A stretch of DNA of 53,182 nucleotides, taken from NCBI GenBank assembly GCA_021205385.1, contig JAJPXQ010000039.1, positions 1 to 53,182 of the forward strand, in the 5' to 3' direction. The notes below the pieces were generated by a model, which saw nothing but the letters and a program-made list of their open reading frames with translations, did not search any database and was not told the DNA's origin. Position 1 is the stretch's first letter. Each line of letters begins with the position of its first letter. Positions 24,901 to 47,486 of this stretch are shown in pieces. Origin of the DNA: Lachnospiraceae bacterium. Its GTDB lineage: Bacteria; Bacillota; Clostridia; Lachnospirales; Lachnospiraceae. A program made the position numbers and the translations under genes.

Positions 24901-25101
24901 ATGGAACAATTTAAGAGATGTCCTGCAAGCCAGGGAAGCATGGCCATGCGTATGGGCAGGGAAGAATATTCACTCGCCATGGACTATGTCCCCTGGCAGT
25001 ACTGGCACACGGTCTATGATCTGGAGAAGGGGCTGTCCCGCGGCACGATTTTTCCGGAGCTTTATAAGCCGTTTCTCGGCGTGAGAGGAGGGTGCAGGTA
25101 G
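24901..25101 (+). CDS. cotJA: spore coat-associated protein CotJA
   Basis: A 66-aa protein with the CotJA signature: LAMDYVPWQYWHTVYDLEKG followed by LSRGTIFPELYKPFLG. In B. subtilis CotJA and CotJC are made in the mother cell and go into the spore coat together. AAAGGA precedes the ATG by about 12 nt. cotJB starts immediately after the stop codon. Its presence shows that the organism, or its recent ancestor, makes spores. The gene is intact and normal in length. Confidence 0.93.
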   Translation: MEQFKRCPASQGSMAMRMGREEYSLAMDYVPWQYWHTVYDLEKGLSRGTIFPELYKPFLGVRGGCR

Positions 25102-25374
25102 ATGGCGCAGAACAGTAAACCGAGCAGGAAACAAATGCTGGACTGGGTGGATATGGTCAGCTTCGCGGTTGTGGAGTCGAATCTGTATCTCGATACACAC
25201 CCGGAGGATCCCGCGGCACTGGCTTACTTTGAGGAGAATAAAATGCTCCGCGAGCAGGCGCTGAAGGACTACGCAGCGCTCTACGGGCCGCTGAACATCG
25301 ACTGCGCGACCGGCATGGATGGAAAATGGGACTGGGTAAGCCAGCCCTGGCCCTGGGAAGGAGGCGTCTGCTGA
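25102..25374 (+). CDS. cotJB: spore coat protein CotJB
   Basis: A 90-aa protein matching CotJB: the helical start QMLDWVDMVSFAVVESNLYL, then PEDPAALAYFEENK and the conserved end YGPLN with WDWVSQPWPWEGGVC. The ATG is the base right after the cotJA stop, with GAGAGGAGG in the end of cotJA. cotJC begins directly after the cotJB stop. It is intact. Its role in the coat is not well defined in any species. Confidence 0.92.
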   Translation: MAQNSKPSRKQMLDWVDMVSFAVVESNLYLDTHPEDPAALAYFEENKMLREQALKDYAALYGPLNIDCATGMDGKWDWVSQPWPWEGGVC

Positions 25375-25539
25375 ATGTGGAATTATGAGAAGAGACTGGA
25401 GTATCCCGTAAACATTACCAATCCCAATCCGGAGATGGCAAAACTGATCATCTCCCAGTTCGGAGGTCCGGATCGCGGCAGGTTATACAGAGAATCTCCG
25501 CTTTTTCAGGATTGCAGTTTTTGGGTAGCGGTGCTATAG
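25375..25539 (+). CDS. cotJC: cotJC 5' segment, interrupted by element 1
   Basis: The first 31 2/3 codons of cotJC are here: MWNYEKRLEYPVNITNPNPE then MAKLIISQFGGP, the normal CotJC N-terminus. At the core TTCGGAGGTCC (25459-25469) the coding sequence passes into element DNA; the frame then continues through 23 unrelated codons to a stop at 25539. The native continuation GPDGELGASMRYLSQRY lies 4.3 kb away at 29780. CotJC is a Mn-catalase-like coat protein of about 200 aa, so this 54-aa product is not functional. It starts directly after cotJB, as in an ordinary cotJ operon, and GGGAAGGAGG supports the ATG. Confidence 0.93.
   Translation: MWNYEKRLEYPVNITNPNPEMAKLIISQFGGPDRGRLYRESPLFQDCSFWVAVL
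25447..25489. repeat. attL of element 1
   Basis: cotJC half-site (CTCCCAGTTCGGA, 25447-25459 onward to 25464), centre GG at 25465-25466, then the element half-site 25467-25489, which includes TCGCGGCAGGTTATACA (25473-25489). That 17-mer is the exact reverse complement of the element half-site at attR (29763-29779). Confidence 0.85.
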
Positions 25540-25540
25540 T
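25512..25540 (+). promoter_or_regulatory. sigma-A promoter of trkA-trkH inside element 1
   Basis: TTGCAG (25512-25517), 17-nt spacer, TATAGT (25535-25540). It lies only 23 nt inside the attachment site, so the cargo has its own vegetative promoter and does not depend on cotJ transcription. Confidence 0.75.
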
Positions 25541-25581
25541 TAAAATATCAGTTTAGAAAAAGGGAGAGCTGGAGGCGAAGG

Positions 25582-26958
25582 ATGAATATTATTATCGCGG
25601 GATGCGGACAGGTCGGGCAGGTGCTGGCAGAGCAGCTCTGCAAGGATGAACATGACGTGACGGTGATCGATCAGAATTCGGAGGCAGTGCAGCGCGTGGT
25701 CTATGCCGCGGATGCCAGAGGCGTGATCGGGAATGCCGCGAGTCTGAATATCCAGATGGAGGCGGGCGTCGACAAGGCGGATCTGCTGATCGCCGTGACG
25801 AATGCGGATGAAGTGAATCTGCTCTGCTGTCTGATTGCAAAGAAATCGGGCGGCTGTCAGACAATTGCGCGCGTGCGCAATCCGGTCTATCACCAGGAAA
25901 TCCACCATTTCAAGGAAGATCTGGGGCTTTCGATGGTCATCAACCCGGAGTGGGCGGCGGCGATGGAGATTTCGAGACTGTTTCGTTTTCCGTCTGCGAT
26001 CGATATTGATACCTTTGCCAATGGACGGATTGAGTTGCTGCGTTTCCATCTGCAGCCGGGGAACCCGCTTTGTGCGAAGAAGATCAAGAACCTGGAGGAG
26101 CTCTCCCGTTGCGAGGTGCTGATCTGCATTGTGGAGCGGCAGGGACAGACCCTGATCCCGGACGGCGATATGGAACTTCAGGAGGGTGATACGATTTCCA
26201 TCGTAGCATCGCCTGCGAATGCAAGCCGTTTTTTCCGTATGATCGGCATCGAGACAAATCAGGTAAAAAATACGATGTTGATCGGCGGGGGCAAGGTTGC
26301 CTTCTATCTGGCAAGGCGCCTGATCGAGATGGGTATTCAGGTGAAGATTGTAGAGAAGGATCGCGCGAGCTGTGAGCTTCTGAGTGATTTGCTGCCGAAG
26401 GCAACAATTATTTACGGGGACGGACGTGATGAGACGCTTCTCGCGGAAGAGGGGCTGGCGCGGGTGGAAGGCTTTGCGGCGCTGACCAATCAGGACGAGG
26501 AGAACGTCATGATGTCTCTCTATGCCAAGCATATGAGCAAGGCGAAGATCATTACCAAGGTCGACCAGGATACCTACAACGCGATCATTGGCTCTCTTGA
26601 TATTGGAAGCATGATTTACCCGAAGCACATCACGGCTGAGACGATCATCCAGTATGTACGTGCGATGCAGAACTCGATTGACAGCAATGTGCAGTCGCTG
26701 TATCGTCTGGTTGATGGAAAGGCGGAGGCGCTGGAATTCATTATTCACAAGCAAAGTGAGTTGACGGATGTTCCGCTGCAGGAGCTGAAGCTGAGGGATG
26801 ATCTGCTGGTCTGCGCAATCTATCGAAAGAGAAAGACCATTATTCCCAAAGGGCAGGACTGCCTGCGGGTCGGTGATTCCGTCGTCGTTATCACTACAAG
26901 CAGCGGTGATCTGAAAGATCTGCGGGATATTCTGAAAAAAACGCGGGCAGCGGGATAA
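25582..26958 (+). CDS. trkA: Trk potassium uptake regulatory subunit TrkA
   Basis: A 458-aa peripheral membrane protein that gates the TrkH channel by binding nucleotides. Two RCK units are seen: NAD-binding motif IIAGCGQVGQVLAEQL at the start and a second, MLIGGGKVAFYLARRL, near residue 233, each followed by an RCK_C (TrkA-C) domain, the last with VPLQELKLRDDLLVCAIYRK. Length matches E. coli TrkA (458 aa). The start at 25582 follows GGGAGAG and a TTGCAG-N17-TATAGT promoter. trkH follows after 15 nt. Unusually, the pair lies inside the recombinase element that splits cotJC, so it would be lost from any genome copy in which the element excises. Confidence 0.95.
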   Translation: MNIIIAGCGQVGQVLAEQLCKDEHDVTVIDQNSEAVQRVVYAADARGVIGNAASLNIQMEAGVDKADLLIAVTNADEVNLLCCLIAKKSGGCQTIARVRNPVYHQEIHHFKEDLGLSMVINPEWAAAMEISRLFRFPSAIDIDTFANGRIELLRFHLQPGNPLCAKKIKNLEELSRCEVLICIVERQGQTLIPDGDMELQEGDTISIVASPANASRFFRMIGIETNQVKNTMLIGGGKVAFYLARRLIEMGIQVKIVEKDRASCELLSDLLPKATIIYGDGRDETLLAEEGLARVEGFAALTNQDEENVMMSLYAKHMSKAKIITKVDQDTYNAIIGSLDIGSMIYPKHITAETIIQYVRAMQNSIDSNVQSLYRLVDGKAEALEFIIHKQSELTDVPLQELKLRDDLLVCAIYRKRKTIIPKGQDCLRVGDSVVVITTSSGDLKDLRDILKKTRAAG

Positions 26959-26973
26959 GGCGGGAGAGCGGCG

Positions 26974-28419
26974 ATGAACAGGAAAATGGTACGCTATATC
27001 ATCGGAAGTGTGGTGCTGCTGGAGGCTTTATTTTTGCTGCTTCCGGCACTGACCGCCCTGATCTACCGGGAAAAATGCCTGTGGGCTTTTCTGGCGACCT
27101 CGCTGATCTGTATTGTATGCGGATGGCTGATGCGGGGTCGGAAAAAACCGGAGAACACGACGATTTTCTCTGTGGAAGGCTACACGAGTGTGGCACTTTG
27201 CTGGATCGTCATGAGTTTCTTTGGCGCGCTGGCACTTTACCTCAGCGGTTCCTTTCCCAATCCGGTGGATGCGCTCTTTGAGATCATCTCCGGCTTCACG
27301 ACGACCGGTTCCACGGTCATGGCGGATGTAGAGTCGGCTCCGCGTGCGGTGCTGATGTGGAGAAGCTTTTCGCACTGGATCGGCGGCATGGGAATTCTCG
27401 TCTTCGTGCTGGCGGTATTGCCCTCGACAGGCGCGTCCAGCATGTATCTGATGAAGGCGGAGAGCCCCGGACCGTCCGTCGGCAAGCTGGTGCCGAAGGT
27501 GCGCGGCTCGGCGAAGCTTCTGTATCTGATCTATATGTTTCTGACTGTTGTCGAGATGGTCTGCCTGCTTGTTTCCGGCTGCCCGGTTTTTGACTCGATT
27601 AACCTGGCCTTTGCCACGGCGGGAACCGGCGGTTTCGGCGTGCTGAACAGCAGCGCGGCGGACTATAACGCGGTGACACAGTGGATTCTCACTGTTTTCA
27701 TGATCCTGTTCGGCGTGAATTTCAATGTCTACTTTCTCTTCTATATGAAGAAGTTCAAAGATGGCCTGCACAGTGAGGAGCTGCGGACCTATCTCGGGAT
27801 TATCAGCGTGAGCGTCCTCGTGATCGTGGTCAATATTTACCATATCTACCAGAATGTGGGTGTGACCCTGCGCCATGCGGCCTTCCAGGTGGCGTCGATC
27901 ATCACGACGACAGGCTTTACGACCGCGGATTTTGACCAGTGGCCGGAGCTGTCGCGGACGATCCTGGTGCTTCTGATGTTCATCGGTGCCTGCGCGGGCA
28001 GCACGGGCGGCGGCATTAAGGTGATGCGCGTGAAAATCATGGCAAAAACGGTGCTGAAGGAGCTGGACTTTATCATCCATCCACGTAATGTGCGGAAGAT
28101 CCGTTTTGAGGGGAAGACGGTGGAGCATGAGGTGCTGCGTTCCATCAACGTTTTCCTGATCACCTACATCGTTATTTTTGTGACTTCGCTGCTGATCATC
28201 TCGCTCGATAATTTTGACGGGATCACGAACTTTACCGCTGTGGCCGCGACGATCAATAACATCGGCCCCGGCCTGAACGGCGTCGGCGCGACGCAGAACT
28301 TCGCTGCATTTTCCAACTTGTCGAAGCTGGTGTTCTGCTTTGATATGCTGGCGGGCAGGCTCGAGATTTTCCCAATGCTGATCCCGGCCGTCTATCTCGC
28401 GCGAAAGAAAGTGCGATAA
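26974..28419 (+). CDS. trkH: Trk potassium uptake membrane subunit TrkH
   Basis: A 481-aa membrane protein with four M-P-M repeats. Selectivity-filter motifs are visible: TTTGSTV (near residue 110), ATAGTGGFG (near 218), TTTGFTTADF (near 310) and a last NNIGPGLNGVG near 430. It forms the K+ pore with TrkA as cytosolic gate. The ATG follows GGCGGGAGAG. Its last 28 nt overlap, tail to tail, with the 3' end of the serine-recombinase gene on the other strand, so cargo and recombinase are tightly packed in this element. Confidence 0.95.
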   Translation: MNRKMVRYIIGSVVLLEALFLLLPALTALIYREKCLWAFLATSLICIVCGWLMRGRKKPENTTIFSVEGYTSVALCWIVMSFFGALALYLSGSFPNPVDALFEIISGFTTTGSTVMADVESAPRAVLMWRSFSHWIGGMGILVFVLAVLPSTGASSMYLMKAESPGPSVGKLVPKVRGSAKLLYLIYMFLTVVEMVCLLVSGCPVFDSINLAFATAGTGGFGVLNSSAADYNAVTQWILTVFMILFGVNFNVYFLFYMKKFKDGLHSEELRTYLGIISVSVLVIVVNIYHIYQNVGVTLRHAAFQVASIITTTGFTTADFDQWPELSRTILVLLMFIGACAGSTGGGIKVMRVKIMAKTVLKELDFIIHPRNVRKIRFEGKTVEHEVLRSINVFLITYIVIFVTSLLIISLDNFDGITNFTAVAATINNIGPGLNGVGATQNFAAFSNLSKLVFCFDMLAGRLEIFPMLIPAVYLARKKVR

Positions 28420-29552
28420 CAGATACAGATATTCTTGTCGCTGCTCCGGAATACGATCTTCTCGATCAGGCTCCGGAGCAGTTCGTTTTTCTGCCGGATT
28501 TCGGGAGCGGAGGCATAGAGGAGCGCGAAAGCCTCGCCTGTGTCGGCAAGATCCCGTTTCATGGTGTGAAGAGTGACTGTTTCCAGCTCTTGTATGGAGA
28601 GATAGTGGCTCTGTAGGCAGGTTCCCTTCGCATAGCGGCAGCACTGAAGAGCGCCGGTCCGGGAACTCCTGGTGAGCGCGCCGCCGCAGCAGCCGCAGCG
28701 CACGAGCCCCTGGAACAGAAAGGCGGAGGGGGCGGGTTTTGGCATGTGAGTGCTGTCGGATCCTTCCAGCTTTTTCTGCACACTTTGAAAAAGGCTTTCC
28801 GAAATCAATGGCTCGTGGCAGCCAGGCACGAGCATCATCTCGCCCTGCACGCTTCGGCGCATCTTTCCGGTGTAGACCGGGTTGCCTAAAATATAGCGGA
28901 CAGCGCGGGCTTCAAAAGGTTTCCCACGTGTGGTCAATATATTTCTTTCATTCAGTTTCCGCGCGATCGCGCGGCAGGAGCTTCCCCGCAGAAAATCCTC
29001 ATAGATCATGGAGACAAAAGGCGCCCGCGTCGGATCCGGGCTGAAATGCCCACTTTCCATGCGGTAGCCGAAGGGCGGGATGGAGACAACGCCGCCCCGT
29101 GAGAATTTCTCATTCATACCGCGACGCACTTCCTCCGCGAGGTTGATGGAGTAGTACTCGTCCATAGCTTCGAGCAGTGCCTCGATCAGGATGGAGGTCG
29201 GATCACCGGAGAGCTGCTCTGTGATGGAGAGCACGTCGATGCCGCACTCCCGGCGCAGCATGGATTTGTAAAGGATGCTGTCCTGGCGGTTTCGCGCGAA
29301 GCGGGAGAATTTCCAGAGCAGGATCACGTCAAAGGGGCGGGGCTTTCGCTTCGCCTCGGTGATCATGCGCAGGAAAGCGGGACGGTTCTGCGCCTTTCTG
29401 CCGCTGAAGCCCTCGTCTAGATAGATGTATTCGTCCGGCAGGCACATGTCGTGTGTGCGTGCGTATTCCTCGATGCGTTTCAACTGGCTGTCCGGGGAAA
29501 ATTCGAGCTGATCCTCGGTGGAGACGCGGATGTAGGCGGCTGCGGTTTTCAT
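28392..29552 (-). CDS. serine site-specific recombinase of element 1
   Basis: A 386-aa large-serine-type recombinase. The resolvase catalytic domain begins MKTAAAYIRVSTEDQ, with nucleophile Ser11 and active-site arginines in LLWKFSRFARNR near residue 82. The recombinase domain has PPFGYR and SCRAIARKLNERNILTTRG, then comes a zinc ribbon (CGCCG ... CCRYAKGTC, about residues 291-317) and a short C-terminal helix. It is shorter than phiC31-type integrases and close in size to SpoIVCA-like enzymes. No Shine-Dalgarno precedes the ATG; a sigma-E-like -10 (CATAGATT) ends 6 nt upstream, so the mRNA could be leaderless. The start lies about 210 nt from attR. It probably catalyses integration and excision of element 1 in cotJC. 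Confidence 0.9.
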   Translation of the reverse strand: MKTAAAYIRVSTEDQLEFSPDSQLKRIEEYARTHDMCLPDEYIYLDEGFSGRKAQNRPAFLRMITEAKRKPRPFDVILLWKFSRFARNRQDSILYKSMLRRECGIDVLSITEQLSGDPTSILIEALLEAMDEYYSINLAEEVRRGMNEKFSRGGVVSIPPFGYRMESGHFSPDPTRAPFVSMIYEDFLRGSSCRAIARKLNERNILTTRGKPFEARAVRYILGNPVYTGKMRRSVQGEMMLVPGCHEPLISESLFQSVQKKLEGSDSTHMPKPAPSAFLFQGLVRCGCCGGALTRSSRTGALQCCRYAKGTCLQSHYLSIQELETVTLHTMKRDLADTGEAFALLYASAPEIRQKNELLRSLIEKIVFRSSDKNICICYRTFFRAR

Positions 29553-29558
29553 ATTGCC

Positions 29559-29588
29559 AATCTATGCGGAAAAATGGCGGCATATACT
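29559..29588 (-). promoter_or_regulatory. sigma-E-like promoter of recombinase 1
   Basis: On the minus strand AGTATATG (29588-29581), 14-nt spacer, CATAGATT (29566-29559), compared with GKMATATT-N14/15-CATACAHT for B. subtilis sigma-E. The -10 matches at 7 of 8 places if H is taken loosely. No sigma-A pair is seen. A closely similar pair precedes recombinase 2. Confidence 0.45.
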
Positions 29589-29607
29589 GTAAAAAAACGG
29601 AGAGAGT

Positions 29608-29769
29608 ATGGGAAGATCGAGGGAACTGACGGCGCTTCCTTCGCGCATAGTCACGGAGCAGGGCGAGAGAAGCTGGGAGAGCCTCATGGAGCGGGAGCGA
29701 AAGGCGATACTGCGGCAGATGCGAAGGGAACTGGAGAGACAGAGGAAGAAAATGGGTGGCAGTGTATAA
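29608..29769 (+). CDS. 53-aa charged helical protein, candidate directionality factor
   Basis: A 53-aa ORF (MGRSRELTALPSRIVTEQ start, then an Arg/Glu-rich helix MERERKAILRQMRRELERQ) divergent from recombinase 1 with only 55 nt between the starts. GGAGAG precedes the ATG. Its stop codon lies inside the element half of attR1. Small charged proteins next to serine recombinases often act as recombination directionality factors, as the 58-aa SprB does for SP-beta. Size, charge and position fit, but no family match is claimed. It is too short to be sure it is translated. Confidence 0.55.
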   Translation: MGRSRELTALPSRIVTEQGERSWESLMERERKAILRQMRRELERQRKKMGGSV

Positions 29770-29805
29770 CCTGCCGCGATTCGGAGGTCCCGATGGGGAG
29801 CTGGG
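29763..29805. repeat. attR of element 1
   Basis: Element half-site TGTATAACCTGCCGCGA (29763-29779) plus TTCGGA, centre GG at 29786-29787, then the cotJC half-site TCCCGATGGGGAG. Joined to the attL inner half, this gives a 48-bp palindrome (23 + GG + 23) with a single mismatched pair. Confidence 0.85.
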
Positions 29806-30118
29806 TGCGAGTATGCGCTACCTTTCGCAGCGCTACACGATGCCTTATAAGGAATGCGCGGCCGTTTTAACAGACATTGGCACGGAAGAGTTGGCACACC
29901 TCGAGATCGTCTGCGCCATCATCTATCAGCTCACGAAGAACATGTCAATGGAGCAGCTGAAGGAATCTGGCCTTTCGGCCTACTACGTGGACCACACCGG
30001 CGGGCTCTGGCCGCAGTCGGCGGGCGGCGTGCCGTGGACGGCGAACGAGTTCCAGTCCACCGGCGACGCGATCACCGATCTCAATGAAGACCTTGCAGCA
30101 GATGCTGCGATTCTGTAA
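29780..30118 (+). CDS. cotJC: cotJC middle segment, between the two elements
   Basis: Encodes residues 32-136 of the rebuilt CotJC: GPDGELGASMRYLSQRYTMP, then YKECAAVLTDIGTEELAHLE and on to AITDLNEDLAA. It carries the first ferritin-like metal helix (EELAH, an ExxH). At the core GCAGCAGA (30095-30102) it runs into element 2 and stops at 30118 after five foreign codons. It has no start of its own: the upstream in-frame codons belong to element 1. It cannot make a working protein because the N-terminus and the second ExxH helix are elsewhere. Native continuation is at 37833. Confidence 0.93.
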   Translation, partial: FGGPDGELGASMRYLSQRYTMPYKECAAVLTDIGTEELAHLEIVCAIIYQLTKNMSMEQLKESGLSAYYVDHTGGLWPQSAGGVPWTANEFQSTGDAITDLNEDLAADAAIL

Positions 30119-30122
30119 GAAC
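30081..30122. repeat. attL of element 2
   Basis: cotJC half ending GCAGCA, centre GA at 30101-30102, element half TGCTGCGATTCTGTAAGAAC (30103-30122). The element half is the imperfect reverse complement (17 of 20) of 37819-37838 at attR. Confidence 0.8.
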
Positions 30123-30126
30123 AACT

Positions 30127-31152
30127 TTACAGGATCTGCATCAGCTGCGCAATGTCTTCCTTAGTAGTGGACCAGCTCGTGGCGAAGCGCACGACCGTGT
30201 GTTCCGCGTCCGGCTTCTCCCAGAAGCTGAAGGCTACCTGCTTTTTCAGGCGCTCGACCTCCTCGTCGCGAAGGAGAAGAAACTGTTGGTTGGTCGGGGA
30301 TTCCAGGTAGAAGGTGTATCCCTTCTCATGCAGTCCTTTTTTCAGGAGCTCCGCCATGTCGATCGCGTGGCGGCTGATCTGAAAATACAGCCCGTCCGTG
30401 AAGAGCGTGTCGAACTGAACGCCGGGCAGCCATCCTTTTGCCAGCAGCGCGCCATGCTGCTTCACGATCGTCAGGAAATGCTTCGGCGTGCAGTGGCCGG
30501 TAAAGACGACGGCCTCGCCGCACAGCGCGCCGACTTTCGTCCCGCCGATGTAGAAGGCGTCGCAGAGTCGCGCAATGTCCGGGAGTGTGATGTCCGTGTG
30601 ATAGCTCATCAGCGCATAGCCCAGGCGCGCGCCGTCCAGATAGAGCGGAATGTCGTGTGCGCGGCAGATGGCGGAAATCTCTTCCAGCTCCGCGTGTGTG
30701 TACAGTGTTCCGTACTCGGTGGGGTGGGAGAGGTAGACCATGCCGGGAAATACCATGTGCTCGTGATTTTCATCCTGATAGAAGCTTTCGAGCAGCGATT
30801 TAAGCTCTCCTGCCGCAATCCTGCCCTCGTGCTGCGGAAGCGTGAGCACCTTGTGGCCGGTAGCCTCAATCGCGCCCGCCTCGTGGGTGCTGATGTGTCC
30901 GGTATCGGCGGCGACGACGCCCTCATACTTGTCCAGCAGCGCGTCGATGACTGTCGCGTTGGTCTGCGTGCCGCCCGAGAGAAAGTAAATGTCCGCCTCC
31001 GGGCAGTTTAAGGCCGCGCGAATCTTTTCCCTTGCACTCTCGCAGTAAGGGTCGTTTCCGTAGCCGGTCAGCGGCTCCCGGTTTGTCTCCATAAGGCGCT
31101 GCAGGATCCGCTCGTGTGCGCCGCAGATATAGTCGTTCTCGAATGACAGCAT
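30127..31152 (-). CDS. ltaE: threonine aldolase / beta-eliminating lyase family protein
   Basis: A 341-aa PLP enzyme of the low-specificity L-threonine aldolase family, which splits threonine or allo-threonine to glycine and acetaldehyde in the cytosol. Visible: LTGYGNDPYCESAREKI at residues 27-43, FLSGGTQTNATVIDALL near 57, the Asp-containing PLYLDGARLGYAL near 165 and the PLP lysine in FYIGGTKVGALCGEAVV near 200. Length is typical. GGGAGGA precedes the start at 31152. Its stop lies only 5 nt from the end of attL2, so it is the edge gene of element 2. Metabolic cargo of this kind is not needed for recombination. Confidence 0.9.
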   Translation of the reverse strand: MLSFENDYICGAHERILQRLMETNREPLTGYGNDPYCESAREKIRAALNCPEADIYFLSGGTQTNATVIDALLDKYEGVVAADTGHISTHEAGAIEATGHKVLTLPQHEGRIAAGELKSLLESFYQDENHEHMVFPGMVYLSHPTEYGTLYTHAELEEISAICRAHDIPLYLDGARLGYALMSYHTDITLPDIARLCDAFYIGGTKVGALCGEAVVFTGHCTPKHFLTIVKQHGALLAKGWLPGVQFDTLFTDGLYFQISRHAIDMAELLKKGLHEKGYTFYLESPTNQQFLLLRDEEVERLKKQVAFSFWEKPDAEHTVVRFATSWSTTKEDIAQLMQIL

Positions 31153-31215
31153 CGGTTAATCCTCCCTTGTAAATTCTTTCGTTATTGTAGCCTGTTTTCC
31201 GTTCAGGGGCAACTC

Positions 31216-32769
31216 TTAAAAATTCCAGTGGATTTCGACGGGAACGTCGCGGTTGCCCGGAATCCTTTTTCCGACAAAAATGTGGTCGATCAGCGTGTCG
31301 ACGAACTCGCGGCTCAGGCGCTGCGGGTGCAGGGATTGCTCGATTCGTTCGCGGCGGGTCCCGTCTGGTTCGCGGAACTCCTCCATTTCCGACAACTTTC
31401 TTTTCCCATCCGCGATCCGGTGTGCAAGACGCTCGCAGGAGGTGTTGAAATCTTCGGACATTTCCAGATAATCGCTTTCGGAGAGGAGCCCCCGGACCTT
31501 GTCGAGATAGAGCTCGCGGATAGCTTTGCCGTATTCGGCCTTTCTCTTTTCCCAGAGAGCCAGGTCGGAGAGCAGGCGGCTCTTTTGCTCCTGCAAATCA
31601 TCGCAAAAGGTGACTTCCTGTTCCAGCACCGCGAGGTCCAGATATTTCATGGTCAGCCGGTTCAGCTCCTCTCTGACAAGCTGCTCCAGTCTGTCAATGG
31701 AAATAAAAGCGCCGGCGCAAGCGTCCTTTGCCACGTGACGGTTCGGACACTGCAGATAGTGTCTGCCCCGGCTGGCGGTGGAGCGCAGAGTATAGCCGCA
31801 GTTCATGCAGCGGGCTTTTCCCGCGAATAAGCCGATGCTGCCGCCTGCAAAGGGCTTCGCCTTTTGTTTTATCAGGCTCTGCACGCGATCCCAGAGTTTC
31901 CGCTCGATGATCGGCTCGTGCGTCCCCTCGACGATGATCCATTCCTCCCTTGGACGGGGCCTGTTTTGCCGTGTTTTATAGGAAAGACTGCCGTATTTTC
32001 CCTGTACCATGTTGCCGATATAGATTTCGTTGACCAGCATGGAGGAGATGGCGCTGTATTTCCAGAGTGTGCCGCCGCGGCTCTTTGGCTGCCGGTAGCG
32101 CAGGCCGCACAGACGCTTGTACTCCGTCGGATTCGGGATGCCCCGCTCGTTGAGCAGGCGGGCGATCGTGGTCTTTCCGACGCCCTGGGAGTACAGCGTG
32201 AATACCTCGCGGACGACGGCGGCGGCCTCCTCGTCGATGAGAAGGTGTCCCTTGTGTTCCGGGTCCTTGCGATAGCCGTAGAGGGCGAAGGCGCCGATGT
32301 GGAAACCGTTCTGCCGTCGGTTCGTCAGGACGCTGCGGATATTTTCCGACATATCCTCCAGATACCACTCGTTGACAAGGCCGTTGATCTGCCGCGACTT
32401 CTTGTTTCCCCTGTTGGCGGTGTCCGCGTTGTCGACGATGCTGACAAAGCGGATGCCCCAGAGGGGAAAGAGTCCGTGAATGTATTTTTCCACGAGCTCC
32501 AGCTCGCGGGTGAAGCGGGACTGCGTCTTGCAGAGCACGACGTCAAATCTGCGCTGCTCGGCGTCGCGCAGCAGGCGTTGAAATGCGGGACGCCGCCGGT
32601 CGGAGCCGGCATAGTCGTCGTCGCTGTAAATCTGGAAAATCTCCCAGCCCTGCTCCATGGCGTACTGCAGCAGCATGGATTTCTGATTCTGGATGCTGGC
32701 GGAGTCGTCGTCCTCATGGCGCTTGTCGCGATCCTCCTCGGACAGGCGGCAGTAAATCGCTGCCTTCAT
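31216..32769 (-). CDS. large serine recombinase of element 2
   Basis: A 517-aa large serine recombinase, clearly different from the 386-aa enzyme of element 1. The catalytic domain has MKAAIYCRLSEEDRDKRHED with Ser10 and the active-site LCKTQSRFTRELELVEKYI near residue 80. The recombinase domain shows GAFALYGYRKDPEHKGHLLI and TIARLLNERGIPNPTEYK, followed by a zinc ribbon (CMNCGYTLRSTASRGRHYLQ then CPNRHVAKDACAG, about residues 325-362) and a coiled-coil C-terminal region. The ATG overlaps the stop of a small upstream ORF (ATGA), so translation is coupled. It probably integrates and excises element 2 at the cotJC core. Confidence 0.92.
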   Translation of the reverse strand: MKAAIYCRLSEEDRDKRHEDDDSASIQNQKSMLLQYAMEQGWEIFQIYSDDDYAGSDRRRPAFQRLLRDAEQRRFDVVLCKTQSRFTRELELVEKYIHGLFPLWGIRFVSIVDNADTANRGNKKSRQINGLVNEWYLEDMSENIRSVLTNRRQNGFHIGAFALYGYRKDPEHKGHLLIDEEAAAVVREVFTLYSQGVGKTTIARLLNERGIPNPTEYKRLCGLRYRQPKSRGGTLWKYSAISSMLVNEIYIGNMVQGKYGSLSYKTRQNRPRPREEWIIVEGTHEPIIERKLWDRVQSLIKQKAKPFAGGSIGLFAGKARCMNCGYTLRSTASRGRHYLQCPNRHVAKDACAGAFISIDRLEQLVREELNRLTMKYLDLAVLEQEVTFCDDLQEQKSRLLSDLALWEKRKAEYGKAIRELYLDKVRGLLSESDYLEMSEDFNTSCERLAHRIADGKRKLSEMEEFREPDGTRRERIEQSLHPQRLSREFVDTLIDHIFVGKRIPGNRDVPVEIHWNF

Positions 32770-32897
32770 GAATGCTTCGTCCTTTCCAGACGACTGATGA
32801 GTTCAATCCATATTCTGGTGAAGTCCTCTCTGGAAATGGCGTTTTCACCGTCTTTGAAAACGCTTTTGCAGATGGTGGTGGCGGGTTCTTCCGGCAA
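32766..32897 (-). CDS. 43-aa protein coupled to recombinase 2, candidate accessory factor
   Basis: A short ORF whose TGA overlaps the recombinase ATG. It begins at TTG (32897) 8 nt after AAAAGGAG (32906-32913) and encodes a compact sequence: PEEPATTICKSVFKDGENAI, then SREDFTRIWIELISRLERTK and HS. The frame stays open 78 nt further upstream without a good start. Codon pattern and coupling suggest real translation. Its place in front of a serine recombinase suggests a directionality or accessory factor; no known family is claimed. Confidence 0.55.
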   Translation of the reverse strand: MPEEPATTICKSVFKDGENAISREDFTRIWIELISRLERTKHS

Positions 32898-32928
32898 CGG
32901 CGTGGCTCCTTTTCCAAAACGTCGGTAT

Positions 32929-32959
32929 ATGCTATGCGCCGGGGCCGGTCCATTATACT
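32929..32959 (-). promoter_or_regulatory. sigma-E-like promoter of the recombinase 2 operon
   Basis: On the minus strand AGTATAAT (32959-32952), 15-nt spacer, CATAGCAT (32936-32929). The Shine-Dalgarno of the 43-aa ORF follows 16 nt later. It is similar to the pair before recombinase 1 (AGTATATG-N14-CATAGATT). Confidence 0.42.
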
Positions 32960-33104
32960 GATTAATAAAAGCCGATTACTGCGTCCTTCGGCAGCCTGCG
33001 TGTCGCAGGCACGCAGTTCATATATCCTCTGCTTGGGATATTTATAATGAAAGTGTGAAAGTACGTAAAAAACACAAAAATCACGTAAAATAATGCGAAA
33101 ATAG

Positions 33105-33383
33105 TATCCGAGTTCAAGAACGCGATCGAATGGCTCTGCCTGTCGGGCATTGTATCGCGCGTATTCAAGGCGGAGCAGATTAAAAAGCCGCTGGATCATT
33201 ATTCAGCGCGACGGTCAGCTCATTCCCATTGAGGTGAAGTCGGCTGACAATACCAGGGCAAAGAGCCTGAAGCGCTATATGGAGCTCTATCAGCCCGCCT
33301 ATGCGATCAAGCTTTCTTCAAAAAACTTTGGATTTGAAGACGGCAAAAAGACGGTGCCGCTTTACGCTGCGTTTTGTATTTGA
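33105..33383 (+). pseudogene. remnant of AAA/DUF4143 ATPase gene
   Basis: Two pieces of a DUF4143-type protein lie in different frames. First VSEFKNAIEWLCLSGIVSRV then FKAEQIKKPL (from 33105), the conserved 'F.NAI.WL..AG' helix. Then, out of frame, IIQRDGQLIPIEVKSADNTR and AKSLKRYMELYQPAYAIKLS, ending PLYAAFCI at 33383. The ATPase domain and the part between the two pieces are missing, so the gene is dead. It differs from the intact DUF4143 ATPase at 36600. It shows that element 2 has taken on and lost genes. Confidence 0.75.
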
Positions 33384-33388
33384 CAGCG

Positions 33389-33940
33389 TTATCCAATCGA
33401 TTTTCCCAGGTTGTAAGCCTGCTGGAGCTCCGATTTTCCCTTGATATCGCCTGTCTCCATGTTGCCTCCGGCCAGTATGTGCCCAAGATTCTGCCACTGC
33501 AGATGCTCCGTCAGGTGATCATAATAGAGAACAGCGTCCTCGAACCCGTATCCTTCCGCCGCCATCAAAAGTGCCGAAGATTTTCCGTTTCCACGCAGTA
33601 GGTTTGTGCCGCCTTCTTCCAGCGCGAACAGACGGTCGAGTGCTGTGCGCAGCTGCCCGCTCATTGTCCAGTAATAGAGAGGGCTGGCGAGGACGAGCAC
33701 ATCGCAGGCCCGGACAGCCGGGTAAATCTGCGTCATATCATCCAGCTGCACGCAGGGACAATCTCGCTTGCTGTGTCCGCCGAAGCAGCCCTTGCATCCA
33801 TGTATATTCATCTTGTCCAGAAAAAACTCTGTGACGTTGTGTCCTGTGTTTTCGGCACCCTCCCGGAATGCCTGTACCAGAGCGGATGTATTGCCGTTTC
33901 TGCGGGGACTGCCGTTTAAAATTACGATCTTCCTGCTCAT
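33389..33940 (-). CDS. flavodoxin-fold NAD(P)H-dependent FMN reductase family protein
   Basis: A 183-aa cytosolic flavoprotein: FMN phosphate loop ILNGSPRRNGNTSALVQAF at residues 5-23, a Cys-rich insert (CKGCFGGHSKRDCPC, about residues 46-60) seen in iron-sulfur flavoprotein-like reductases, and ASPLYYWTMSGQLRTALDRL near residue 83. It may reduce quinones, nitro compounds or other electrophiles. The start at 33940 (second of two close ATGs) follows AAAGGAG with the better spacing. It is divergent from an HxlR-type regulator, a common redox-stress pairing, and both are inside element 2. Confidence 0.82.
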   Translation of the reverse strand: MSRKIVILNGSPRRNGNTSALVQAFREGAENTGHNVTEFFLDKMNIHGCKGCFGGHSKRDCPCVQLDDMTQIYPAVRACDVLVLASPLYYWTMSGQLRTALDRLFALEEGGTNLLRGNGKSSALLMAAEGYGFEDAVLYYDHLTEHLQWQNLGHILAGGNMETGDIKGKSELQQAYNLGKSIG

Positions 33941-33964
33941 TTTCATTTTCTCCTTTACATAGAA

Positions 33965-33993
33965 TTGACTTTTCCTGCTGCTGATATTATCAT
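33965..33993 (+). promoter_or_regulatory. sigma-A promoter of hxlR-type gene
   Basis: TTGACT (33965-33970), 17-nt spacer, TATCAT (33988-33993), in the gap between the divergent flavodoxin and HxlR genes. Confidence 0.6.
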
Positions 33994-34017
33994 CATAGCA
34001 AGAATGGAAAAGAAAAC

Positions 34018-34044
34018 AAGTACGCACATGAAAGTGCGATACTT
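34018..34044. promoter_or_regulatory. inverted repeat, candidate HxlR operator
   Basis: AAGTACGCAC (34018-34027) and GTGCGATACTT (34034-34044) form an inverted repeat with one unpaired base. It lies between the hxlR promoter and its start codon, a good place for autorepression. Confidence 0.5.
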
Positions 34045-34063
34045 ACCTGAAGGAGAGTGTAAA

Positions 34064-34396
34064 ATGAGTGATCGCTACATCGCAAATGAAAGTCTCGGAA
34101 CAACGGGATTCAGCTACACCCTGTCGTTAATCAACGGGAAATACAAGATGACGATTCTCTATACGCTGATGGAATTTGGCGTGGTAAGGTTCAATGAGAT
34201 GAAGCGGTATATCGGAGATATTTCTTATAAAACACTCAGTTCCACTCTGAAAGAGCTGGAAGCGGATCAGCTGGTTCACCGAAAAGAATATCCTCAGATC
34301 CCTCCAAAGGTTGAGTACAGCCTGACCGAAAGAGGGAGGTCCCTGATTCCCATTTTGGATGGAATGTGCGAGTGGGGAGACAAGAACAGATTATAA
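34064..34396 (+). CDS. HxlR-family winged-helix regulator
   Basis: A 110-aa MarR/HxlR-type DNA-binding protein. The family pattern is plain: LSLINGKYKMTILYTLMEFG (about residues 17-36), VRFNEMKRYIGDISYKTLSS, LKELEADQLVHRKEYPQIPP and VEYSLTERGRSLIPIL. GAAGGAGAG precedes the ATG at 34064. Position and divergent arrangement suggest it controls the flavodoxin-type reductase and itself, perhaps through the inverted repeat at 34018-34044. The family cysteine used by redox sensors such as YodB is not in the N-terminus here, so the signal is unclear. Confidence 0.88.
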   Translation: MSDRYIANESLGTTGFSYTLSLINGKYKMTILYTLMEFGVVRFNEMKRYIGDISYKTLSSTLKELEADQLVHRKEYPQIPPKVEYSLTERGRSLIPILDGMCEWGDKNRL

Positions 34397-34527
34397 AATT
34401 CAAGTATAGACCTTTGCTTATCTGAAGGACAATGAGGAGTGGAAAGCGCTCCTTGGCTCGAAAGAATCCCTTTTCTTCTCTCCCGTTCTGGGGTAAAATA
34501 CAGGAAAAGGGCAGCGAGGTGAAAAAA

Positions 34528-35628
34528 GTGAAGCAAGATCCGTTCAGGGAATATATGAGAGAGTCTGAGCCGGATAAACGGGATAAGGGTTACGCGTGGC
34601 ACACGGCCATCGGCCTGCAGGCAGTCGATGGATTGACGACGTCGGAATATTTGCAGCACACTGCCGTTCGCAATATCGAGGGGGAAATATCTTTCGAGGA
34701 GGCGAATGCACTTTTACAGACCTATTACGAGGAAAATCCGGCCGGTGATATGGAAGATCGCACCGAAGAGGCCGACAAGGTTTCAGCACGGATTGCAGCG
34801 CTCTTGTCCGAGCGTGCGTTTAGTTTCACGTCGAATACATATCTTTCCATTCATAAAAAGCTTTTTACTGGTATCTATTCTCATGCAGGAAGGTTCCGCG
34901 ATTATAACATCACGAAAAAGGAATGGGTACTGGACGGAGCGACAGTGATCTATGGAAGTGCCACGGAACTGCCGGAAACGCTGGAATATGATCTTTCAGA
35001 GGAGAAAAGGTTCTCCTACAGGAATCTCTCGATGGATGAGACGATCCATCATCTTGCGATATTTGTATCCAGATTGTGGCAGATTCATGTATTTGAAGAG
35101 GGAAATACCAGAACGACGGCGGTGTTTTTCATCAAGTATCTCCGCACGCTTGGTTTTGATGTAACGAATGACATCTTTGCCGAGAATGCATGGTATTTTC
35201 GGAATGCGCTGGTCAGGGCAAATTATAATGACCTGAAAAATGGGATTCACGAAACCACGGAATATCTGGAGCGCTTTCTGCGCAATCTTCTGCTGAATGA
35301 GAAACATCCGCTTCATAACCGGAGTCTGCACATCAGCGGAACTTTCTACACCGTGGGAAAAGCGAACATTGACAGTTCAAAAGCGAACATTGAGGAGGAA
35401 AAAGTGAACATAGAAGAGCGCTTTACGCCGAAGACCGCGGCTCATGTTCAGAAACTGTTCGAGGCATTTGGCTTTCAGACAATCTTTGGCAGGGCGGATG
35501 TTCAGCGCGTGCTCGGATTGAAGGAGACAAGAAGCTCGGCCCTGCTGCGCCAGATGGCGGAAGCCGGAGTTACCAGACCGGTGTCCGGCTACGGAAAAGG
35601 AAAGTATCACTTTCAATGGCTTGAGTAG
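34528..35628 (+). CDS. Fic-domain AMP-transferase-type protein
   Basis: A 366-aa Fic protein. The core motif HVFEEGNTRTTAVFFIKYL (His near residue 187) fits HxFx(D/E)GN(G/T)R, so it can probably transfer AMP or a related group to a target protein. An inhibitory-helix-like RNIEGE near residue 50 is present but lacks the usual S/T. A C-terminal winged-helix region (about residues 285-366) with a repeated 'KANI..' linker may bind DNA or a partner. GTG at 34528 is favoured by GAGGTGA upstream; GTG at 34519 is possible. Such proteins are often toxins or regulators. It lies within element 2. Confidence 0.83.
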   Translation: MKQDPFREYMRESEPDKRDKGYAWHTAIGLQAVDGLTTSEYLQHTAVRNIEGEISFEEANALLQTYYEENPAGDMEDRTEEADKVSARIAALLSERAFSFTSNTYLSIHKKLFTGIYSHAGRFRDYNITKKEWVLDGATVIYGSATELPETLEYDLSEEKRFSYRNLSMDETIHHLAIFVSRLWQIHVFEEGNTRTTAVFFIKYLRTLGFDVTNDIFAENAWYFRNALVRANYNDLKNGIHETTEYLERFLRNLLLNEKHPLHNRSLHISGTFYTVGKANIDSSKANIEEEKVNIEERFTPKTAAHVQKLFEAFGFQTIFGRADVQRVLGLKETRSSALLRQMAEAGVTRPVSGYGKGKYHFQWLE

Positions 35629-35637
35629 AGGTGAGTT

Positions 35638-36432
35638 ATGGAATATTTCTGGTATATCGTTGCGGCGCTGGGCGCGGGCGTCGGTACCGGCCTGGCCGGT
35701 CTGTCCGCGGCGACAGTGATGGTCCCGATTCTGATCGTGCTCTGCCCCTCCTTTGGCGGGGAGTACGGCGCGTATCAGGCGACGGCCATCGCGTTGGCGT
35801 CGGACATCCTGGGATCGGCTGTGACGACCTCCGTCTACGCGAAAAACAAGCGGATTGATCTAAAGCACGGCTGGGTCATGCTGGTCTGCATCATCGGACT
35901 CAGCGCGGTCGGCAGCTATGCCGCCTATCTGGTGGGAAATGTGGTGCTGGGCGGCTTCACCCTGATCCTGACCTTCTGCATTGGCATTCGATTCCTGATC
36001 AAACCTGATACCTCGAAGGAGGGAGCGGACGCCTCCCATGTGCGGCTGGGCTGGAAGGAGATTCTCATATCGCTGTTTTTTGGCCTGACGATCGGCTTCG
36101 GCACAGGCTTCGTGGGGACCGGCGGCGGTATGATGATGCTGGTCGTCTTTACGGCGTTTCTGGGCTATGATCTGAAAACCGCGGTTGGCACCAGCACCTT
36201 CATCATGACCTTCACCGCCCTGATCGGCTTTGTCAGCCATTCGCTGATTCACCCGGCCATCGTGCTGGAGCGCTGGCCTGTGCTGATCATCTGCATCGTC
36301 ACCGCGACGGCGGCGTCTCTAGTCTCCGCCCAGTTCGCAAACCGTGTGAACAACAAGACCGTGGGAAGGGTCACGGGTGTGATTCTGACGATCCTGGGCG
36401 CTGCCATGATCTACCTTAACTATTTTTGTTAA
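35638..36432 (+). CDS. TauE/SafE-family sulfite or anion exporter-type permease
   Basis: A 264-aa membrane protein with eight hydrophobic spans in two similar halves: GTGLAGLSAATVMVPILIVL near residue 17 and FGTGFVGTGGGMMMLVVFTA near residue 153, the repeated glycine-rich TauE/SafE signature. The family moves sulfite, sulfonates or other small anions. It starts 9 nt after the Fic stop with GAGGTGAG, so the two are probably co-translated. It is cargo of element 2. Specificity is unknown. Confidence 0.88.
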   Translation: MEYFWYIVAALGAGVGTGLAGLSAATVMVPILIVLCPSFGGEYGAYQATAIALASDILGSAVTTSVYAKNKRIDLKHGWVMLVCIIGLSAVGSYAAYLVGNVVLGGFTLILTFCIGIRFLIKPDTSKEGADASHVRLGWKEILISLFFGLTIGFGTGFVGTGGGMMMLVVFTAFLGYDLKTAVGTSTFIMTFTALIGFVSHSLIHPAIVLERWPVLIICIVTATAASLVSAQFANRVNNKTVGRVTGVILTILGAAMIYLNYFC

Positions 36433-36539
36433 ACGTCTCTTTTTTATCCGTTTTGCGATATAGTTGGATCGATGTACCTGCCAGATTATATTAAAATTAA
36501 AATTTTATTGGTTGTAACTTATAAAAAATGGATTTCGCG

Positions 36540-36567
36540 TTGAAATCAGATATAATAGTGATAAAAT
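36540..36567 (+). promoter_or_regulatory. promoter candidate for the AAA/DUF4143 gene
   Basis: TTGAAA (36540-36545), 16-nt spacer, TAAAAT (36562-36567), in a notably AT-rich stretch between the TauE/SafE gene and the ATPase gene. Confidence 0.5.
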
Positions 36568-36599
36568 ATATTGGAAATCCTGGAAGGGAGAGGTTCTTC

Positions 36600-37814
36600 A
36601 TGATAAAACGGGAAGCTTATATGAGTCGTATCCGGCCTTTTATCGGGAATGAGCTGATCAAGGTTCTGACCGGTATCCGCCGCAGTGGAAAGTCCGTCAT
36701 GCTGCAGCTCATTCAGGAGGAGTTGATCGAGAACGGTATTGATCCGGGGCAGTTCATTTCCCTGAATTTTGAGAATATGAGCAACGCACAGCTTTGCAGC
36801 GCTTCTGCCCTGCATGAGGAGATTATTCATCAGGCGGAGAAAATCGGCGGCAAGGTTTATCTGTTTTTTGATGAAATACAGGAAGTGACAGACTGGGAAA
36901 AGTGTATCAATTCTTTTCGCGTAGAATTGGATTGTGACATTTATATTACCGGTTCCAATGCCAGGCTGCTCTCCGGAGAGCTGGCTACTTACCTTGCCGG
37001 GCGTTATGTAGAATTTGTGATCTATCCGTTCTCGTTTGGGGAGTTTCGGGAGCTGTATCACAGCGTTTTTCCGGACGCGGATGACAGACAATGCTTCGCA
37101 AAGTATCTGACGCTGGGCGGAATGCCCTATCTTGCCAACCTTCGTTATGACGATGCGGCCAGCCGCCAGTATCTGCGCGATCTGTTCAACTCTGTCGAGC
37201 TGAAGGATGTCGTCAGGAGAAATAATATCCGGGATGTGGATATGCTGGAACGAATCATTGCTTATCTTACTGCCAATGTCGGTACCACGTTTTCCGCAAC
37301 GGCCATTTCCAGATATTTGAAAAACGAAGGACGCCCGGTATCGACGGAAACAGTACTCAATTATATCAAAGCCTGCACGGACGCCTTTCTGTTTTACCGG
37401 GTGAAACGGCAGGATCTGCAGGGCAAAAAGATACTGACCGTCAACGAAAAATACTATGTTGCCGATCATGGTATCCGGGAGGCTGTGTTTGGCGGCAATA
37501 CAAAAGACATTCAGCTGGTTCTGGAAAATATTGTTTTTATGGAACTTCTGCGCCGTGGCTATTCTGTTACCATCGGAAAACTGTCCGACAGGGAGGTCGA
37601 TTTCGTATGTGAATATCAGAGCAGAAAGCTGTATGTCCAGGTCTCTTATCTGCTAGCTTCGGAGGAGACGATCCGGCGGGAGTTTGGCGCCCTGGCTGCT
37701 ATCCGCGATAATTTTCCCAAATATGTCGTCACGATGGATGAAGTGGACATGAGCCGGGACGGAATCAGGCACTTTAATATTCGTGATTTTCTGCTGGCAG
37801 AGGAGTGGAACTGA
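36600..37814 (+). CDS. AAA ATPase with DUF4143 C-terminal domain
   Basis: A 404-aa cytosolic protein: Walker A TGIRRSGKSVML near residue 26, Walker B-type VYLFFDEIQEV near 85, sensor ITGSNARLLSGELATYLAGR near 118, then the DUF4143 nuclease-like C-terminal domain (DREVDFVCEYQSRKLYVQV near residue 333). This family is common in anaerobe genomes and in accessory DNA; its task is unsettled. The start at 36600 follows GAAGGGAGAGG. It ends 4 nt before the attR2 element half-site, so it is the right-edge gene of element 2. The broken DUF4143 gene at 33105-33383 is from a different subgroup. Confidence 0.85.
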   Translation: MIKREAYMSRIRPFIGNELIKVLTGIRRSGKSVMLQLIQEELIENGIDPGQFISLNFENMSNAQLCSASALHEEIIHQAEKIGGKVYLFFDEIQEVTDWEKCINSFRVELDCDIYITGSNARLLSGELATYLAGRYVEFVIYPFSFGEFRELYHSVFPDADDRQCFAKYLTLGGMPYLANLRYDDAASRQYLRDLFNSVELKDVVRRNNIRDVDMLERIIAYLTANVGTTFSATAISRYLKNEGRPVSTETVLNYIKACTDAFLFYRVKRQDLQGKKILTVNEKYYVADHGIREAVFGGNTKDIQLVLENIVFMELLRRGYSVTIGKLSDREVDFVCEYQSRKLYVQVSYLLASEETIRREFGALAAIRDNFPKYVVTMDEVDMSRDGIRHFNIRDFLLAEEWN

Positions 37815-37818
37815 GTTT

Positions 37819-37860
37819 GTTTTTACACGATCGCAGCAGAGCAGAAAGCGCGCACAACCT
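37819..37860. repeat. attR of element 2
   Basis: Element half GTTTTTACACGATCGCAGCA (37819-37838), centre GA (37839-37840), then cotJC half GCAGAAAGCG. Joined with the attL2 element half it gives the predicted attP2. Confidence 0.8.
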
Positions 37861-38054
37861 ACGACAATCTGATCCGCATCATTCAGGATCCGGAAGTCCT
37901 CGATCCCTTACGTTTCCTGCGGGCGCGTGAGGTCGTGCACTTCCAACGCTTCGGTGAAGCCCTGCGTATTGTGCAGGATCATCTCGACGCCAATAATTTC
38001 TATATCATGAATCCGGAGTTTGACACGGGTGTGCAGGGAAAGTGCGTGGATTAA
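37833..38054 (+). CDS. cotJC: cotJC 3' segment, after element 2
   Basis: The last 71 codons of cotJC: EQKARTTYDNLIRIIQDPEV, LDPLRFLRAREVVHFQRFGE, ALRIVQDHLDANNFYIMNPE and FDTGVQGKCVD, then TAA at 38054. It has no start or ribosome site. It holds the second metal-binding helix (EVVH, an ExxH) needed by the Mn-catalase-like fold. Segments 25375-25469, 29791-30102 and 37841-38054 add up to 621 nt, one 206-aa CotJC without any frame break. The lack of stops or frameshifts in all three segments suggests selection still acts on the joined gene. Confidence 0.93.
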   Translation, partial: AAEQKARTTYDNLIRIIQDPEVLDPLRFLRAREVVHFQRFGEALRIVQDHLDANNFYIMNPEFDTGVQGKCVD

Positions 38055-39214: not shown

Positions 39215-39289
39215 CGGGGTATGGCTCAGTTTGGCTAGAGCACACGGCTGGGGGCCGTGGGGTCGCAGGTTCGAATCCTGTTACCCCGA
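39215..39289 (+). tRNA. tRNA-Pro (GGG)
   Basis: A 75-nt cloverleaf: acceptor CGGGGTA/TACCCCG, D stem GCTC/GAGC, anticodon stem CACGG/CCGTG with loop CTGGGGG (anticodon GGG), variable GGGTC, T arm GCAGG-TTCGAAT-CCTGT, discriminator A. CCA is not encoded. Confidence 0.95.
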
Positions 39290-39324
39290 CTTTTGAGGGA
39301 CTGCCGGAGGGCGTGCTCCAGAGA

Positions 39325-47395: not shown

Positions 47396-47477
47396 GCCGC
47401 TGTGGCGGAATTGGCAGACGCACTTGACTCAAAATCAAGCGGAGTGATCCGTGCCGGTTCGAGTCCGGCCAGCGGCA
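47396..47477 (+). tRNA. tRNA-Leu (CAA)
   Basis: An 82-nt class II tRNA: acceptor GCCGCTG/CAGCGGC, anticodon stem CTTGA/TCAAG with loop CTCAAAA (anticodon CAA), long variable arm CGGAGTGATCCGT, T arm GCCGG-TTCGAGT-CCGGC, discriminator A. CCA is not encoded. Confidence 0.96.
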
Positions 47478-47486
47478 CAGGACAGG

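Follow-up and report, generated by a model that had tools for sequence, protein, structure and literature searches.

The spore coat gene cotJC is divided into three pieces by two serine-recombinase elements in the 53,182-nt stretch of Lachnospiraceae bacterium DNA analysed here (GenBank assembly GCA_021205385.1, contig JAJPXQ010000039.1; hereafter the window), which is contig C134 of a draft genome of 3.10 Mb in 167 contigs. The three pieces join into one open frame, the elements meet the gene at symmetric sites centred on in-frame dinucleotides, and the gene has remained under purifying selection while the elements diverged together with their hosts. We consider it likely that cotJC is stored in pieces in this lineage and reassembled by DNA excision, most probably in the mother cell at sporulation.

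The divided gene and its probable attachment sites

All three cotJC pieces lie on the forward strand. The first (25375..25469) covers codons 1-31 and two bases of codon 32, ends with the site-A repeat described below and matches positions 1-33 of PF05067; the second (29791..30102) takes up the last base of codon 32, codons 33-135 and two bases of codon 136 (PF05067 28-151), and the third (37841..38054) supplies the last base of codon 136 and the remainder of the gene, stop included (PF05067 147-197). Joining 25375-25469, 29791-30102 and 37841-38054 yields 621 nt, or 207 codons including the stop, in which the sole stop is the terminal one. The three-way division, its coordinates and the exact in-frame joining proposed in a first-pass annotation of this DNA all hold. 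The joined CotJC gives a full-length family match and keeps E35, E65, H68, E136 and H169, which are invariant in 17 intact homologues and which we take to be metal ligands in CotJC/manganese catalase, Glu65 and Glu136 among them.

Within the order cotJA-cotJB-cotJC, it is the coding region of cotJC that is interrupted, while cotJA (24901..25101, forward strand; PF11007, E 2.7e-18) and cotJB (25102..25374, forward strand; PF12652, E 2.6e-27) are intact, as had also been claimed. A motif upstream of cotJA resembles sigma-E/K promoters and is kept in five members of the window's clade and in the related genome G012. Elsewhere in the window genome, spoIVA, sigE and sigK are intact, the last of these having been checked for interruption with none found. 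The earlier suggestion to look for a second cotJC was followed up with PF05067 over the whole 3.10-Mb draft, which returned the three pieces and no other copy.

Element 1 measures 4321 bp and sits at codon 31 (site A), and element 2 measures 7738 bp and sits at codon 136 (site C). Each carries one full-length large serine recombinase with Resolvase, Recombinase and zinc-ribbon domains (PF00239, PF07508 and PF13408), namely rec1 (28392..29552, reverse strand, 386 amino acids) and rec2 (31216..32769, reverse strand, 517 amino acids). The two recombinases are 27% identical and each element has its own direct repeats; the proposal of two independent elements is supported.

The site-A direct repeat TTCGGAGGTCC (11 bp, forward strand) occurs at 25459..25469 and again at 29780..29790, with the presumed crossover at the GG of 25465-25466 (codon 31), whereas the site-C direct repeat GCAGCAGA (8 bp, forward strand) occurs at 30095..30102 and 37833..37840, with the presumed crossover at the GA of 30101-30102 (codon 136). 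By themselves, repeats this short could arise by chance. We rebuilt 20 nt on each side of the would-be circle junction and scored its inverted symmetry out of 20. The window's circle junctions were symmetric at 19/20 positions round the codon-31 GG and at 17/20 round the codon-136 GA, against a mean of about 5/20 over all candidate pairs, and such palindromes on in-frame dinucleotides far exceed chance.

Across relatives, four recurrent sites were found in cotJC, at codon 31 (site A), codon 65 (B), codon 136 (C) and codon 175 (D). In 20 genomes, the in-register centre was recovered in 14/14 cases for site A (scores 10-20), 8/9 for site B and 7/8 for site C; at site A it was the best or tied centre in 13, with G016 tied and G004 having it second. 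Site D, which was spotted from renewed breaks in G013 and G016 and was tested where the 3′ piece was present, leaving aside L078, L111 and L151, gave an in-register centre in 3/3. No clean in-register centre was found at site C of G015, and no good palindrome at site B of G058, where the gene is split near codon 62; the G016 pair that spans a missing middle piece stood outside the test. Several of the tested pairs span different contigs, so that the symmetry also supports the pairing of the ends. At three of the four sites, the crossover dinucleotide makes up bases 1 and 2 of a glutamate codon conserved without exception in the 17 intact homologues. Among 29 site-A elements judged whole, the GG pair fell at codon 31 in every one (shifts of up to 9 nt being allowed), and 27 had an open left half up to codon 30, 26 of these with a symmetry of at least 10; in the remaining two, L098 and L104, the anchors were misplaced.

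In a tree of 35 recombinases, those of site A (14), site B (8), site C (7, rec2 included) and site D (4) each formed a single clade with 100/100 support. The site labels required five changes on this tree, the minimum possible, and none of 200 shuffles came as low. One clade per site indicates that at least four recombinase lineages came to cotJC.

Distribution of the split and its phage relatives

We surveyed 61 genomes, the window's own included, of which 48 had a cotJC match; splits were called by reading the match table and the loci fetched later, and G034, with one weak match, was left out of the counts. Within the window's genus the gene was split in 14 of the 15 matched genomes (own included; G002 from the table alone), G012 having an intact copy only. 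Among further genomes of the family it was split in 6/15, with the middle piece missing in G027 and G032, and among further genomes of the order in 7/17, where G054 was called on one piece and G046 has a full copy too. Up to four breaks fall within one gene: sites A, B and C are occupied in G007, sites A, C and D in G013, and breaks occur at all of A, B, C and D in G016. Larger draws gave a cotJC match in 182/294 genomes of the order and 98/146 of the class, with many more splits among the matches listed and recurrence in other families.

These splits do not depend on fragmented assemblies. Of 15 genomes with one to three contigs, a non-random choice, ten were split (G300, G198, G123, G140, G221, G282, G172, G187, G235 and, less cleanly as its two pieces overlap, G062), and G300, G198, G140, G221, G282, G172 and G235 are single-contig genomes. 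Isolates such as Lachnoclostridium sp. An196 (site A) carry the split as well, and the locus is also present in Marasmitruncus massiliensis. We consequently reject an assembly or binning artefact, an explanation that the 167-contig draft and the many metagenome-assembled genomes (MAGs) among the relatives might have invited, and regard it as extremely improbable.

From the recombinase side, the best 80 of 439 qualifying rec1 homologues in named genomes (Lachnospiraceae, Oscillospiraceae and others; ten repeat genomes of the survey) had a cotJC piece nearby in 74 cases. No such piece was found near the other six (L119, L125, L134, L092, L108 and L136); L119 and L125 show an unbroken attP-like repeat by eye, and L134 runs off its contig end.

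Some carriers of these recombinases are phages. Genes for terminase, portal, major head and major tail proteins are present in the 41-kb site-B element of G009, and genes for portal and minor head proteins in the 39-kb site-A element of G030. In the complete circular phage PQ006094.1, the integrase shares 52% identity with rec1 across 87% of its length; an automatic search beside that integrase gave no symmetric attP, and a weak candidate was seen by eye. Among IMG/VR relatives (the best 80 for site A, 19 for site C and the best 80 for site B), a cotJC piece was present in 14/80, 6/19 and 19/80, respectively, one of the site-A relatives (L195) being at just 30% identity. We then examined 22 viral contigs without cotJC, obtained by entering 31 of the 80 starts and dropping those that bore cotJC or were cut at an end. 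In 19/22 of these site-A viral contigs, a GG/CC-centred site with a symmetry of at least 12/20 lay no more than 40 nt from the stop codon of the integrase, while random windows of the same contigs reached 12 in 18/4320. All 19 sites read GGN-GG, and 12/19 read T[AT][CT]GGN-GG, like cotJC codons 29-31. Because these viral attP-like sites share the cotJC core, element 1 looks like a small descendant of the phage site-A group. We propose that elements 1 and 2 both come from integrative elements with fixed attachment sites inside cotJC. The scope of the first-pass annotation, that of one gene in one genome, proved too small for a split that spans nearly the whole genus, four sites and four recombinase lineages, with site A a phage attachment site.

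There are probably more than four cotJC sites. The recombinase at the break near codon 62 in G058 falls into none of the four site clades, the single-contig genome G235 has a break at about codon 99 with 14 kb inserted (G235:C1:80770-95424), and loci L062 and L135 belong with further breaks beyond A-D. In G358, two cotJC pieces (codons 1-67 and 46-192) lie about 157 kb apart (G358:C1:2541492-2698812), a spacing that possibly reflects a very large site-B element.

Selection, excision and rival explanations

Joined cotJC frames from G000, G007, G010, G011, G013 and G016 gave dN/dS values of 0.014-0.093 at dS 0.11-0.68 over 67-176 codons, and the pairs G005/G014 and G001/G015 gave 0.019 and 0.018. 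Relative to the window, dS was 0.23-0.45 for rec1 and 0.16-0.32 for rec2. Host genes outside the elements ranged from 0.09 (HAD, G013) to 0.72 (cotJB, G007), with up327 at 0.18-0.57, and trkA inside element 1 reached 0.78. As the recombinase dS falls within the host-gene range, both elements were most likely already present in the common ancestor of the window's clade. The recombinases are likewise under constraint, with dN/dS of 0.125-0.160 for rec1 (G007, G010, G013, G016) and 0.10-0.17 for rec2 (G007, G010, G013). The combination of purifying selection on the split gene with co-divergence of elements and hosts suggests that cotJC is probably reassembled and used. The earlier suggestion that the joined gene is still used thereby gains support from selection, which still maintains the gene.

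A dead cotJC would look otherwise, and we saw no other route from the pieces to a protein, which makes excision before expression the economical reading. In the mechanism we propose, rec1 would recombine the two site-A copies round GG and rec2 the two site-C copies round GA; both deletions would be in frame and would together restore the 207-codon frame of a coat protein of the CotJC/manganese-catalase type. Both excisions would most likely take place in the sporulating mother cell, and since this cell dies, the germ line would keep the split gene. We infer both the excision and its timing.

Several observations weigh against this proposal. Neither an excised junction nor a circle junction was found in any of the six draft genomes of the clade (0/6 each), although assemblies made from growing cells that retain the elements would be expected to lack the excised junction. 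Alignments gave no clear conserved promoter of sporulation type upstream of rec1, orf53 (the small gene beside it) or rec2. The first-pass annotation had named decayed recombinases in sister strains as counting against its reading, and here the outcome was mixed: the window, G010, G013 and G016 have an intact rec1, but the gene is broken by a stop in G007 and by a frameshift in G011 (dN/dS 0.32), two MAGs of low coverage (about 4.7x and 6.3x), and in the isolate Faecalicatena contorta ET52 (L133 10001-10822) the site-A recombinase ends at 273 residues, with both cotJC halves persisting. The site-B and site-C recombinases of G016 and the piece between them were not recovered. A full cotJC stands beside the split one in G006 (C16) and G009 (C28), both of the genus, so that neither necessarily depends on its split copy; a full-length match also accompanies the split pieces in G300, G198, G123 and G140. 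Finally, in an alignment of rec1 with its homologues, the coiled-coil block comprises 5 residues versus 86-92 in 8/14 of them (a comparison by alignment only), and although such a loss would be fitting for an enzyme of excision, deletion of the coiled coil is reported to have abolished phiC31 activity and lowered that of LI integrase (PMC10754689).

The broken recombinases, the second full copies, the prophage nature of two examined elements, one at site A and one at site B, and the phage contigs that carry a matching attP-like repeat without cotJC would all be accounted for if cotJC were an integration hotspot only, with conserved codons hit by phages and small elements, the gene dead in its carriers and insertions so recent that the pieces still look good. 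We think this unlikely, as the window's clade combines recombinase dS of 0.16-0.45 with the low dN/dS of cotJC, and as joined frames are open in divergent families. For that clade, a dead gene after recent insertion is mostly rejected on account of dN/dS and the co-diverging elements, while it may be conceivable where a carrier has another, complete copy or its recombinase is broken. We give slightly more room, while still doubting it, to stochastic excision in growing cells, by active lysogeny or phase variation and not as a step of sporulation. The integrases are of phage type with phage attP-like sites, a sporulation promoter for them is not established, and the yin element is described as excised at all time points (PMC10747680). 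Against this alternative, the excised form was absent from all six draft genomes, a weak test, and the interrupted gene belongs to a coat operon whose mother-cell-like promoter motif is conserved.

The coiled coil, known systems and other genes

The 53-codon gene orf53 (29608..29769, forward strand) is a shortened member of a family of small proteins encoded close to site-A recombinases; these proteins are about 53-80 residues long, with an extended start predicted for some. The family occurs in 39/90 site-A loci, many of which are incomplete and a few of which stem from genomes counted twice, and neither orf53 nor the members scanned gave a Pfam or NCBIfam match above cut-off. For these site-A comparisons, L074-L076 and L081-L084 were excluded as repeats of surveyed genomes, L133, with its short recombinase, was excluded from the co-occurrence and left-half counts, and L108 was excluded from the coiled-coil tree. 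In 29 complete elements, a full-length small gene accompanied 14/16 recombinases with the coiled coil versus 0/13 without it (Fisher p 1.8e-6, kinship uncorrected); over all 81 loci the counts were 29/68 versus 0/13 (p 0.003, likewise uncorrected). The 13 recombinases lacking the coiled coil have at most 423 amino acids; six, which form the window's clade, have a shortened small gene and seven have none. Loss of the coiled coil needed four changes on the recombinase tree, at least two of which are forced.

The directionality factor of serine integrases is thought to act via the coiled coil, and LI integrase without it is reported to lose its integration/excision bias, with low activity (PMC10754689, PMC5025042). 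Taken with the co-occurrence, this role suggests that the orf53 family is a directionality factor, that some lineages excise without it and that the window's lineage may have given it up in part. A broader view, which strikes us as evenly balanced between right and wrong, is that cotJC is a multi-site developmental DNA-splicing gene of Clostridia, where at least four lineages, site A at least being phage-borne, each own one codon, and where some integrases became dedicated excision enzymes by losing the coiled coil and the directionality factor.

Like skin in sigK of B. subtilis and C. difficile, the cotJC elements are serine-recombinase elements that split a mother-cell gene, although cotJC encodes a coat protein instead of a sigma factor and holds several elements. 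Excision of C. difficile skin is described as driven by CD1234, a small directionality factor controlled by sigma-E and SpoIIID (PMC5025042). The gin element in gerE of B. cereus ATCC10987 shares with the window's elements the lack of phage genes, a short repeat, a symmetric dinucleotide site and a serine recombinase, there with the partner GirX, but is presented as a single 28.6-kb element in one gene (PMC5595907), whereas the window has two independent ones, of 4.3 and 7.7 kb. SP-beta in spsM, vfbin in spoVFB and yin in yabG are phages or phage-like and are reported to be excised at sporulation (PMC10747680, PMC5025042, PMC5595907, PMC4191935), and the accounts of these systems describe one element per gene, unlike cotJC (PMC10747680, PMC5025042, PMC5595907). 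Several elements per gene are described for the heterocyst system, with four in nifD of Rivularia sp. PCC 7116 and more than one in 10/87 interrupted genes (PMC4874684); those elements, however, belong to cyanobacteria and another terminal cell type and are unrelated to sporulation, and rec1 and rec2 match XisF far under its cut-off. In domain order and dinucleotide-centred attachment sites, rec1 and rec2 resemble large serine integrases of the phiC31 and LI type, from which rec1 differs in having no coiled-coil block. By the features tested in sequence, and leaving developmental excision aside, the cotJC elements fit the skin-like group. In the open-access literature, to which our search was confined, we found neither a described interruption of cotJC nor a case of several elements in one sporulation gene, and PMC10083194 names no catalase among the targets of integrases in its main text.

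Programmed excision at sporulation has so far been known from single elements, in sigK, spsM, gerE, spoVFB and yabG. If our proposal is right, four-site splitting of a coat gene would be a common feature of gut and rumen spore-formers from several families, and making CotJC would require several independent mother-cell excisions, from a gene holding up to four elements in G016. One genus would then offer a series from phage integrase to possible dedicated excision enzyme, and the four recombinases with their defined sites would allow a direct test of why mobile DNA gathers in mother-cell genes. Annotation of carriers may record cotJC as missing or broken.

Apart from rec1 and orf53, element 1 contains trkA (25582..26958, forward strand; PF02254/PF02080; dN/dS 0.02-0.03 versus five relatives) and trkH (26974..28419, forward strand; PF02386). 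A role of this pair as the sole Trk system was ruled out by a second TrkH elsewhere in the window genome. The trkA-trkH pair lies within the site-A element in all 13 split genus genomes fetched, and was also seen at L072 and L154; in G012 it stands directly 3′ of the intact cotJC, with no recombinase found in C49:1-19500. Besides rec2, element 2 encodes a threonine-aldolase-like pyridoxal phosphate enzyme (30127..31152, reverse strand; PF01212), an NADPH-dependent FMN reductase (33389..34027, reverse strand; PF03358), an HxlR-type regulator (33965..34396, forward strand; PF01638), a Fic-domain protein (34432..35628, forward strand; PF02661), a TauE/SafE exporter (35638..36432, forward strand; PF01925) and an AAA_14/DUF4143 ATPase (36528..37814, forward strand; PF13173, PF13635). 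The window further holds a tRNA-Pro(ggg) at 39215-39290 and a tRNA-Leu(caa) at 47396-47478.

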